In this document: piece after piece, positions 14,908 to 34,316 of the stretch
Position numbering within the stretch: position 1 is the first letter of the stretch
Layout of the letters: each line of letters starts with the position of its first letter
Notes under the pieces: generated by a model
The model's database searches: none
Told to the model about the DNA's origin: nothing
The model's input: only the letters and a program-made list of their open reading frames with translations
Virus record (IMG/VR): IMGVR_UViG_3300044712_000118
Span: 1-34,413 of that record
Strand: one strand, 5' to 3'
Length of the DNA: 34,413 bases
Source: a virus
Program-made: the position numbers and the translations under genes

Positions 14908-14908
<1 letters not shown>
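14582..14908 (+). CDS. Small baseplate/tail protein, BppU-N-like
   Basis: A 108-residue all-beta protein starting with TTG two bases after the tail tip gene. The segment [32 protein letters not shown] is typical of the small immunoglobulin-like N-terminal domain found in baseplate upper proteins and stand-alone actinophage tail proteins. The stop codon shares one base with the next ATG (TAATG). It probably links the fibre proteins to the tail tip. Confidence 0.6.
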
Positions 14909-16080
<1,172 letters not shown>

Positions 16081-31460: not shown

Positions 31461-31700
31461 ATGCTATTGGACGGATTACAACCACCTATCAAGTTTTACC
31501 CATGCAAAATTCGAGAACTCTACGAGACGCTCGACCCTAAAGACGCAGACATTCTAAGAAACTGCATCGGAGATTTAGAGGCATGGGGCGCAAAAACCCT
31601 AAGCAACGCACTCAACGAACGAGGCGTCACCGTATCAGACCTCAGCATTTCACGTCACCGCAAGAATCTTTGCTCATGCGGAAAGATGACCAATGCTTGA
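31461..31700 (+). CDS. Small DNA-binding-like protein
   Basis: A 79-residue protein (MLLDGLQPPIKFYPCKIRELYETLDPKDADILRN) with helices and a terminal RHRKNLCSCGKMTNA that resembles the end of small actinophage helix-turn-helix proteins (SxxxIxRHRxxxCxC). The conserved layout LxxLDxxD...LxxAL...GVxVSxxxIxRH is a helix-turn-helix pattern. It overlaps the phosphoesterase gene by eight bases, so the two may act together. Confidence 0.6.
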   Translation: MLLDGLQPPIKFYPCKIRELYETLDPKDADILRNCIGDLEAWGAKTLSNALNERGVTVSDLSISRHRKNLCSCGKMTNA

Positions 31701-32820
31701 AAATTTGCAAACGGCAGCAAAACCCGAACCCCAACCTTTCGGCAGACCTGCCATCGAGTTCAATGGCGATGAGGGTTTTGCAACAACGCCGGGTCTACCT
31801 GAGGGCGCAGACTTCAAAGATTTCCTAATCGACGCAGGCTACAACCCTGACGAGATTACAGTCGTTGGCACACCCCGCACCTCAAGATGGCAACGCTACG
31901 ATGGCGAATGGCTAACCTCTTACCGGTTCTCATTCACCCTCAACCAATCAGCCATTGACCTGCCAACCCTTTACGCTCAGGCAAAGAAAACCAAGCCTAA
32001 GCCAACGCAGCCGCAGTCAAAAAATAAAGCCGTCGTTGTCTGTTGGTCAGACACTCAGACAGGTAAGGTTGACCATAGAGGCGGAACCCCCGAACTTATC
32101 CAACGTATTCAGGAAAAACTCACGGCCCTAGACGCATATTGTAAGCGTGAAAAACCAAGTGTTATCTATTTCCTAAACGTTGGAGATTCAATTGAGAACT
32201 TCGAGTCGGGCGGAAACCCGATGCGTACGAACGACCTCTCTTTGATGCAACAGATTGACCTTGAGGCTACTTTCGAGTTTGATGCGTTGCGTACTCTTGC
32301 CAAGCATGCACCAATCATTGCCGCATCAGTTGGGTCCAACCATTGCCAATGGAGAGCCGGGCAGAAACGCCTTGGAACAACTCTCGACGACTGGGGTATT
32401 TTCATCCAGCGTCAACTAGCCAAACAGGCTCAACTCATCGGCTTAGACGTCAAGTTCTACGAACCGGCGATGACTGACGAATCACTTGCCCTTGAGGTTG
32501 GATTCGGAGACCACATTGTCGGACTCGTTCATGGTCATCAAGCGTCAAACCCTGACCGCATGGTTACTTGGTGGAGAGGCCAGTCTCATGGAGACCAAGC
32601 CGTCGCAGATGCAACCGTTCTCGTCTACGGACATTACCACCATCTACGCATCACCGAAACAGGCCGACGCAACGGACGCTCACGCTACCTCATCCAATGC
32701 CCAACCCTCGACAACGGGAGTTCGTGGTACCGTCAAACCTCAGGTGATGACTCAGACCCGGGACTTTTGGTATTCAACCTAACGGACGAACCGTTCAATG
32801 GAACCGTCACAAAACTTTAA
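31693..32820 (+). CDS. Calcineurin-like metallophosphoesterase
   Basis: A 375-residue protein. An N-terminal accessory region (about residues 1-110) precedes the phosphoesterase core: VVCWSDTQTGK (D120), YFLNVGDSIENF, SVGSNHCQW, GLVHGHQ and VYGHYHHLR, the metal ligand blocks of the family. It could act on nucleotides or DNA ends (Mre11-like) but the substrate is unknown. It is the last protein gene before the structured noncoding region. Confidence 0.83.
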   Translation: MLENLQTAAKPEPQPFGRPAIEFNGDEGFATTPGLPEGADFKDFLIDAGYNPDEITVVGTPRTSRWQRYDGEWLTSYRFSFTLNQSAIDLPTLYAQAKKTKPKPTQPQSKNKAVVVCWSDTQTGKVDHRGGTPELIQRIQEKLTALDAYCKREKPSVIYFLNVGDSIENFESGGNPMRTNDLSLMQQIDLEATFEFDALRTLAKHAPIIAASVGSNHCQWRAGQKRLGTTLDDWGIFIQRQLAKQAQLIGLDVKFYEPAMTDESLALEVGFGDHIVGLVHGHQASNPDRMVTWWRGQSHGDQAVADATVLVYGHYHHLRITETGRRNGRSRYLIQCPTLDNGSSWYRQTSGDDSDPGLLVFNLTDEPFNGTVTKL

Positions 32821-33311
32821 CAATCCCGTTTACGGCTATGCAGAGAGCAATCCGAGTAACCGCAAGACCTAACGGCTAAAAGGTTAGTCCACCCTTGTAC
32901 GAGAACGGCTTAGTTCCTTTCCATCTTTCGAGATTGGTAAGGTTTAGGAATGGATTAGCGGCGCATCGTCAATGCTAATTAGGCTGCCCCGTATGGGGTC
33001 TGGTGGTGCAAATCCACACATTCCACAAGGGCAAGCCATGTCCCCGATATCTACCAGCCAGCCTGCGTAGGTCATCATGGCAAATAAACAACAATTTCTT
33101 TCGCAACGGTATTTTGGTTGATTCCCACGATACGCAGTCCTACGAAAATGTTGGGTATTAGGTCTATTGCTGCGGCGGGCCTAATACCAATCACCCCCAA
33201 GGTTTCGGCCTTGGCCCCCTAGTCCCTGCGGATTAGGGTTTATACAAATGAACCGCACTTGGTTGGTTAGACCTGATTACAGGCATATAGTCCAACCTCG
33301 GGATTCATTTA

Positions 33312-33385
33312 GGGTAGTAGCACAATCAGGATGGTGCAATAGGTTAGTCCATTAGGTTGCGGGTTCGAATCCCGCCTACCCACCA
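33312..33385 (+). pseudogene. Degenerate tRNA-like element inside the structured region
   Basis: The T arm (GCGGG-TTCGAAT-CCCGC), D arm (GCAC/GTGC with a loop holding AA and GG) and ACCA end look like a real tRNA, but the acceptor stem has only six pairs (GGGTAG/CTACCC) and the anticodon arm is poor: with a TTAGTCC loop (anticodon would be AGT) only the middle of the stem pairs. It is probably a tRNA mimic or decayed tRNA forming part of the larger RNA. Confidence 0.6.
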
Positions 33386-33578
33386 AGACTCAGGTGTGAC
33401 CTCTACTGCGTAAGCGGAACGCCCCCTGAGTTTAGACAACGCCATTTGTTTCATCATCTGGCCCGGTATCCGTTCAATCCTGATTATTGCGGCTCTACCT
33501 GATTTGGCTCAAGGTTGCAAACGAAAGCCACTTATTTGACGGTGCATCAGGATAAACCGTCACTTAGGATTCAATAAC

Positions 33579-33616
33579 AAACAATCCGCTTACTATTGTT
33601 TAGCGGAACAAACAAT
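33579..33616 (+). promoter_or_regulatory. H-type pseudoknot / alternating hairpin before the FmdB-like gene
   Basis: AAACAAT (33579-33585) pairs with ATTGTTT (33595-33601); the loop contains CCGCT (33586-33590), which is complementary to AGCGG (33602-33606) right after the stem. The same ATTGTTT can instead pair with a second AAACAAT (33610-33616). The two arrangements exclude each other and end 14 bases before the ATG at 33630. Confidence 0.5.
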
Positions 33617-33629
33617 AATAAGGCCCGCC

Positions 33630-33809
33630 ATGCCAACCTATTTTTACAACTGCCCCGACTGCAACCTAGAGTTCAAAGTAATCCGAGGCATGAACGACGC
33701 AGAGGACAACACCTGCCCAACGTGCGGTGCCGCTGCAAAAAGAGACTTCACAATTGGACGCATCAAATTTAAAGGGGATGGGTTCTACTCAACAGATAAG
33801 GCAGAGTGA
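33630..33809 (+). CDS. FmdB-like zinc ribbon protein
   Basis: A 59-residue protein (MPTYFYNCPDCNLEFKVIRGM ... CPTCGAAAKRDF) with a two-CxxC zinc ribbon, and a tail KGDGFYSTDK typical of FmdB-family regulatory proteins (usually GxGFYxTD). These occur in actinobacteria and their phages and may bind nucleic acid. It lies directly downstream of the structured RNA. The ATG overlaps a structured leader without a clear ribosome binding site (AAGGCCCGCC). Confidence 0.75.
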   Translation: MPTYFYNCPDCNLEFKVIRGMNDAEDNTCPTCGAAAKRDFTIGRIKFKGDGFYSTDKAE

Positions 33810-33983: not shown

Positions 33984-34316
33984 ATGACAAACCCCCCGGC
34001 AGATACACCCCGACACCGTTGGGATAGTAGCAACAGACGACAAGACAGTCCTCAATGGAAAGCCATTCGTTCTCTTGTTGCTGAGAGGGACAACCATAGG
34101 TGCCAAGAGTTCATGCGAGACGGTGAACCTTGCACCGATAAAGGAACAGAGTGTGACCACATCATCCCAGTTTCTCAAGGTGGAACAGACTCCCTAGAAA
34201 ACCTGCGAATGTTATGCACATGGCACCATGCTCGCAAGTCCTCCCGTGAGGGACAAGCCGCTCGCAAGAATCTAACCGAGAGACGCCCAACCCCTCGGCA
34301 CCCCGGACTCATCTAA
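33984..34316 (+). CDS. HNH endonuclease (packaging-associated position)
   Basis: A 110-residue nuclease with DHIIPVSQGGTDSLENLRMLCTWHHARKS, containing the His, Asn and His of the HNH motif and cysteines before and within it (C...CTDKG...C). In many siphophages with cos or headful packaging an HNH enzyme next to the terminase genes is required for DNA packaging; here it lies at the right end and the terminase genes at the left, so the two become neighbours on a circular or concatemeric molecule. The start follows AAGAGAAAACAA. Confidence 0.83.
   Translation: MTNPPADTPRHRWDSSNRRQDSPQWKAIRSLVAERDNHRCQEFMRDGEPCTDKGTECDHIIPVSQGGTDSLENLRMLCTWHHARKSSREGQAARKNLTERRPTPRHPGLI

Follow-up and report, generated by a model that had tools for sequence, protein, structure and literature searches.

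The non-coding gap near the right end of this phage genome is best read, with a confidence that falls a little short of even, as an accessory slot, with exchangeable contents, for small RNAs that mimic tRNA or tmRNA and probably serve as decoys, rather than as the template of one large RNA. The window, that is the whole stretch of DNA analysed, is an IMG/VR virus record of 34,413 bases, and the gap (32821-33629, about 810 bases) separates the gene of an exonuclease-like metallophosphoesterase (MPE) from a zinc-ribbon gene. The modular architecture of the slot is well supported, and so is the presence in it of two tRNA-like cloverleafs, TLE1 and TLE2; that these two elements act as decoys is what we infer from them. 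In the proposed arrangement, the slot would start immediately 3' of the MPE gene and hold several small structured RNA modules, which in the window would be a bulged hairpin (32821-32876), TLE1 (32947-33028) and TLE2 (33311-33385).

The MPE gene (31693-32820, plus strand; phrog_284 exonuclease, E=9.9e-51) anchors the slot, the zinc-ribbon gene (33631-33809, plus strand; Pfam Zn_ribbon_8, 49.3 bits) forms its right border, and an HNH endonuclease gene (33984-34316, plus strand; Pfam HNH, E=1.1e-9) stands at the genome end. The other recognizable genes of the window encode TerS (745-1248), TerL (1241-2905), a portal, a tape-measure-like protein, Gp37-like and collagen-repeat proteins, and RecE/YqaJ; a collagen-repeat protein is found amid the tail genes, at 14908-16080. 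Searches with the MPE protein returned 142 relatives in viral_contigs and none in genome_contigs, and 80 MPE loci from IMG/VR were used for comparison. The host is probably an actinobacterium, because the named phages in which MPE relatives occur have, with few exceptions, hosts such as Mycobacterium, Cutibacterium, Streptomyces, Gordonia and Pontimonas.

The gap had been described as non-coding, and this description holds. With the common start codons, it contains no ORF of at least 60 aa on either strand, no stop-to-stop frame reaches 80 aa except one running into the zinc-ribbon gene, and none of these frames looks conserved. In particular, no protein-coding ORF is shared with L002, one of the two loci nearest to the window; a conserved frame would have spoken against an RNA, and the protein-coding reading was rejected. 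No terminator was found in the gap, promoter-like sites are no commoner in it than in shuffles, the whole gap has no similar DNA among 50,697 phage records, and a piecewise search of these records with three pieces other than TLE2 gave nothing significant.

The original prediction saw in this gap a densely structured RNA, possibly a large ornate one comparable to GOLLD and ROOL. Perfect Watson-Crick helices of at least 6 bp within 60 nt number 13, against 6.8 +/- 2.9 in shuffles (13 is reached in 2 of 60), and complementary long-range 9-mers number four, against 0.85 expected and with no shuffle of 60 reaching four. The dense pairing is thus borne out as a modest enrichment in perfect stems, but this does not extend to the fold energy, which does not exceed the background of the genome. 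The full-length gap (809 nt) folds with z = -2.9 to -3.9; among 15 coding stretches of this phage, two give -4.4 and -3.2, and the antisense of the gap gives -3.0. In local 150-nt folds, the mean z is -0.76 in the gap versus -0.83 in the rest of the genome (p = 0.49). The folding energy of the gap, whole-length or local, is unexceptional within this phage genome, and the evidence therefore consists of specific small modules and not of one "highly structured" fold of 810 nt.

That the gap encodes one RNA of some 800 nt, of a new class akin to GOLLD and ROOL and with a linker that houses a tRNA, is accordingly an unlikely reading. It would account for the size, the phage context and the internal tRNA (linkers of GOLLD may hold phage tRNAs; PMC12286853), as well as for the four long-range 9-bp complementarities and the whole-length z of about -3 to -4. 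Known ornate RNAs share with the gap their origin as phage non-coding RNAs and a similar total length, but no covariance model of this kind matches the window. Neither GOLLD, ROOL, OLE nor HEARO was found with Rfam, in the whole window at the gathering threshold or in 32700-33750 at E up to 10, where the scan returned only a tRNA and two chance plastid matches. Against a single ornate RNA are also the ordinary fold energies, the subsets of modules that differ among relatives (see below) and the lack of a homologue for most of the gap. The searches made returned no homologue of the segments 33032-33310 and 33386-33629, which a larger fold may yet span; some 500 of the 810 gap bases are without homologue.

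The strongest structural signal in the gap is given by two specific tRNA-like matches. When the whole window was scanned for 6-bp acceptors that enclose 60-91 nt and lie beside a T-arm with a T-loop, the plus strand gave exactly two matches, TLE1 and TLE2, both in the gap, and the minus strand a single one, outside it; the combination of acceptor and T-arm seen in these elements occurs in 0.07% of gap shuffles. Both fold freely into cloverleafs. TLE2 (33311-33385, plus strand), which had been noted as an embedded tRNA-like element, proves real, with 36.5 bits to Rfam tRNA RF00005 against a gathering score of 29. It has a 6-bp acceptor (GGGTAG 33312-33317/CTACCC 33376-33381), a D-arm GCAC/GTGC, a T-arm GCGGG-TTCGAAT-CCCGC, the discriminator A and an encoded CCA. 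Its anticodon arm is degenerate with a short loop, ARAGORN assigns it no anticodon triplet, and it has neither the 7-bp acceptor nor the readable 7-nt anticodon loop of a tRNA. Among phage DNA records it finds weak tRNA matches, the best being a tRNA-Thr (E=5e-3).

TLE1 (32947-33028, plus strand) was found by the structural scan and its cloverleaf appears within the free MFE fold, but neither ARAGORN nor Rfam's tRNA model, the latter with E allowed up to 10, lists it. It is composed of a 6-bp acceptor GGAATG/CATTCC, a D-like arm ATTAGC/GCTAAT, an anticodon-like arm CCCC-GTAT-GGGG and a T-arm GTGG-TGCAAAT-CCAC followed by ACAA, and the pattern TGCAAATCC...TCCACAA is common to TLE1 and the tRNA-like element of L002. 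A helix, CCCTTGT 32892-32898/ACAAGGG 33025-33031, encloses TLE1 (32892-33031, plus strand; sequence and MFE fold) and directly continues its acceptor. It is not conserved in L002 and hence putative; it may embed TLE1 in a larger domain. The flanks of TLE1 can thus pair onwards from its acceptor, which would hide the 3' end of TLE1 and speaks against the main reading. Decoding by either TLE1 or TLE2 is unlikely because of their 6-bp acceptors and abnormal anticodon arms.

The main argument for a set of modules rather than a single RNA is that relatives hold differing module subsets in the same slot. L001 and L002, with MPEs 74% and 72% identical to that of the window, are the two nearest of the 80 MPE loci. 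L001 has about 11 bases between the MPE stop and the zinc ribbon, and L002 has about 400 non-coding bases with the 5' hairpin and one tRNA-like element. The latter (2281-2357; 28.0 bits at 2281-2354) is the counterpart of TLE2, and the two differ by paired changes in the acceptor (GGGTAG/CTACCC in TLE2, GGATAG/CTATCC in L002) and in the T-stem (GCGGG/CCCGC and GTAGG/CCTAC, respectively). Among more distant relatives, L010 and L011 carry in the slot a weak tRNA-like element (18.8 bits), L016 a hairpin named element A alone, and L014, L015, L017 and L070 first element A, which adjoins the MPE stop, and then an 82-nt RNA, described below as a mini-tmRNA. Element A, found in these last five loci, is a hairpin of 48-50 nt whose outer stem (10 bp) covaries and whose inner stem is offset; its arms differ by paired changes, as in L014 (CTGATGGGTG/CACCTATCAG) versus L016 (CTGGTGGGTG/CACCCACCAG). 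The slot may hence be found with nothing in it, with a hairpin, with a hairpin and a mini-tmRNA, with hairpins and a tRNA-like element, or with a hairpin and two tRNA-like elements. When the structural scan was applied to the collected relatives, L002, L010, L011, L014, L015, L017 and L070 showed a tRNA-like element immediately 3' of MPE; the remaining matches were a true tRNA in L067 and one, apparently due to chance, in L076.

It could be thought that the tRNA-like element is instead the remnant of an attP site, in which the phage would carry a host tRNA 3' end in order to integrate at a specific site. The 3' half of TLE2, with T-arm and CCA, is indeed its best-preserved part, but no tyrosine or serine recombinase was found in the window, and TLE1 and the L002 element retain complete cloverleafs; we regard this origin as highly improbable.

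The first module of the slot is the bulged hairpin directly 3' of the MPE stop (32821-32876, plus strand), whose homologue lies at 2108-2163 of L002. Its outer helix pairs CCGTT 32826-32830 with AACGG 32871-32875, its inner helix CGG 32833-32835 with CCG 32860-32862, and a stretch CAAGACC(T) is single-stranded. Between the window and L002, all eight pairs are retained in arms that are otherwise near-identical, and two compensatory double changes (C-G to T-A and C-G to G-C) are suggestive of a conserved structure, in a comparison of two sequences only in which 130 of 500 column shuffles score as well. When 70 records were scanned with a model of this hairpin (R2), no other copy was convincing, DNA patterns of its core returned only the contig of L002 from viral_contigs, and the L002-type core gave no matches in bacterial or archaeal genomes. 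In L002, a second similar hairpin, CGCAAGTCC, lies upstream at about 2065-2115 with an apparent pseudoknot.

The layout of the 5' hairpin recalls abiF RNA (RF03085), the antitoxin RNA of AbiF (PMC12373285), which has been reported in cyanophage S-CREM1 (PMC9964418). The two have in common an outer stem, an inner hairpin on the 5' side and a 3' single-stranded CAA-rich stretch; the window hairpin differs in its longer loop, devoid of the conserved CUCUCA. The abiF model gives 24.2 bits on L002 (2119-2156), below the curated cut-off of 37, with E ~1 in an all-Rfam scan, that is at chance level, and no match in the window at E<=1. Membership of the abiF family, suggestive in L002 only, is therefore not claimed, and the abiF-like layout may be taken as a lead.

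The 82-nt RNAs of L014, L015, L017 and L070 belong to a class of RNAs that can be described as mini-tmRNAs. The tmRNA model RF00023 scores these four at 51.5-54.4 bits (cut-off 47), and 46-54 bits when L106 and L107 are included, in which the RNA lies just upstream of the HNH gene. They are devoid of the message and pseudoknot part of about 300 nt, which is replaced by a short hairpin set in conserved AAAGCC...GGA sequence; the tRNA-like domain remains. With a covariance model (R1) made from 11 examples of the class, members were identified at 66-92 bits in 14 of 75 records of related phages, the window (18 bits) not being counted. In these RNAs, 17 of 23 pairs are changed on both sides, 92% of the cells are paired, and the covariation score is 0.67, against 0.19 when shuffled and at most 0.13 when the partners are slid; structural constraint on the mini-tmRNAs of the relatives is strongly supported by these sequence comparisons. 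Their positions are L014:4278-4359, L015:1587-1667, L017:2202-2282, L070:3273-3353, L106:2223-2303, L107:2327-2408, L092 and L095:1498-1580 (minus strand), L124:1501-1584, L126:1501-1582 (minus strand), L129:474-555 and L130:328-409. Furthermore, the class occurs in named phages: between two annotated genes of Pontimonas phage phiPsal1 (MG835450, 5569-5650; L120:1501-1582), and in the cultured Streptomyces phages BRock (KX925554; L136:491-571, 78.9 bits) and Alone3 (OR725492; L137:479-558, 58.8 bits), both outside the building set of R1 and with annotated tRNA genes flanking the RNA. In none of these three phages is there an annotation under the match. Two cultured actinophages, Streptomyces phage Attoomi (L141:2044-2690) and Propionibacterium phage PA6 (L119:2614-3878), also have a long unannotated gap upstream of the HNH gene that lies at the right end of their genome; no mini-tmRNA was found in PA6 or in the scanned part of the Attoomi gap.

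TLE2 was considered for this class and rejected, with 18 bits to R1 versus 66-92 for the members. RF00023 gives 15.8 bits on the window, on the T-arm only, and the tmRNA-type combination of D-loop, P2 helix and T-arm is not found in the window elements.

The comparison with relatives bears on the main rival to a decoy role, a decayed array of tRNA or tmRNA genes with spacer and no present function. Such decay would be in line with the abnormal anticodon arms and acceptors, with the resemblance of TLE2 to phage tRNA genes and with L001, which lives without the region. However, the changes between the window and L002 are compensatory and preserve the acceptor and T stems, the structure of the mini-tmRNAs that relatives hold at this position is clearly constrained, and a compact phage of about 34 kb retains some 810 bases in this gap. 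We hold decay to be improbable, if somewhat less so than a single ornate RNA.

Other hairpins complete the gap. A perfect 9-bp hairpin (GGTATTAGG/CCTAATACC; 33154-33188, plus strand) came from the helix search, and a second one (ACTCAGG/CCTGAGT; 33388-33431, plus strand) bears the predicted GTAA loop (33410-33413); no homologue was found for either. Both TTCG-loop hairpins of the original prediction are present, as are its crossing helices before the zinc-ribbon start codon (33585-33617, plus strand; sequence and helix search), in which TCCGCT 33585-33590 pairs with AGCGGA 33602-33607 and TATTGTTT 33594-33601 with AAACAATA 33610-33617. From their sequence, these helices could form an H-type pseudoknot or a translational switch. 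In a further reading, TLE2 would be a working phage tRNA whose altered anticodon loop makes it resist anticodon nucleases, and the remainder of the gap an ordinary UTR with cis-regulatory hairpins and a pseudoknot controlling the zinc-ribbon gene. The 36.5 bits and encoded CCA of TLE2, the existence of phage tRNAs with altered anticodon loops (PMC10264068) and the end of the crossing helices just upstream of the zinc-ribbon start codon would suit it; the 6-bp acceptor and the anticodon loop that is not of the standard 7 nt would not, and TLE1 and the conserved hairpin would be left unexplained. Its probability appears low, about that of the single ornate RNA.

A mimic or decoy role is rated likeliest in the light of work on phage tRNAs: altered anticodon loops have been proposed to protect them from anticodon nucleases (PMC10264068), and they can evade retrons (PMC11555353). 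TLE1 and TLE2 resemble such tRNAs in their unusual anticodon arms and, for TLE2, in the encoded CCA, but differ in their 6-bp acceptors, in having no standard 7-nt loop and in the other RNA modules alongside. The modules would be transcribed rightwards along with the flanking genes and then excised, or shielded from degradation, as stable RNAs of tRNA size; by mimicking tRNA or tmRNA, TLE1 and TLE2 would occupy host factors that bind these molecules, the candidates being defence nucleases that attack tRNA or the machinery of trans-translation. The only precedent found for a mini-tmRNA is mycobacteriophage DS6A, whose tmRNA scarcely exceeds the tRNA-like domain (TLD) and lacks a CDS; a similar molecule is a strong inhibitor of tmRNA and may act by titrating SmpB (PMC4131195, PMC11915505). 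The nearest relatives with a nameable slot module carry a tmRNA cut down to its tRNA-like domain, the reported inhibitor form, and by analogy their mini-tmRNA is possibly an inhibitor of host ribosome rescue. The DS6A RNA and the window elements are alike in being small phage RNAs that fold like tRNA and probably do not decode, and RNAs of the DS6A kind occupy the same slot in L014, L015, L017 and L070; the window elements are cloverleafs and not tmRNA domains, and as they are not mini-tmRNAs, the DS6A parallel concerns position and tRNA likeness only.

More speculatively, and well below the confidence given to the slot itself, some actinophage-related phages may keep a dedicated and rapidly exchanged RNA cassette beside their MPE and HNH genes, holding interchangeable RNA mimics of host components of immunity or translation. 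Its modules might conceivably be tRNA-like decoys, mini-tmRNAs and antitoxin-like hairpins, an RNA counterpart of the islands of anti-defence genes. Phage RNAs of tRNA-like form, overlooked by standard annotation, may commonly interfere with host translation or with tRNA-based defence, and the slot gives the search for them a fixed place in the genome. The mini-tmRNAs of the relatives, three of them in cultured phages, make the old suggestion that a phage uses a stripped tmRNA to inhibit trans-translation directly testable.
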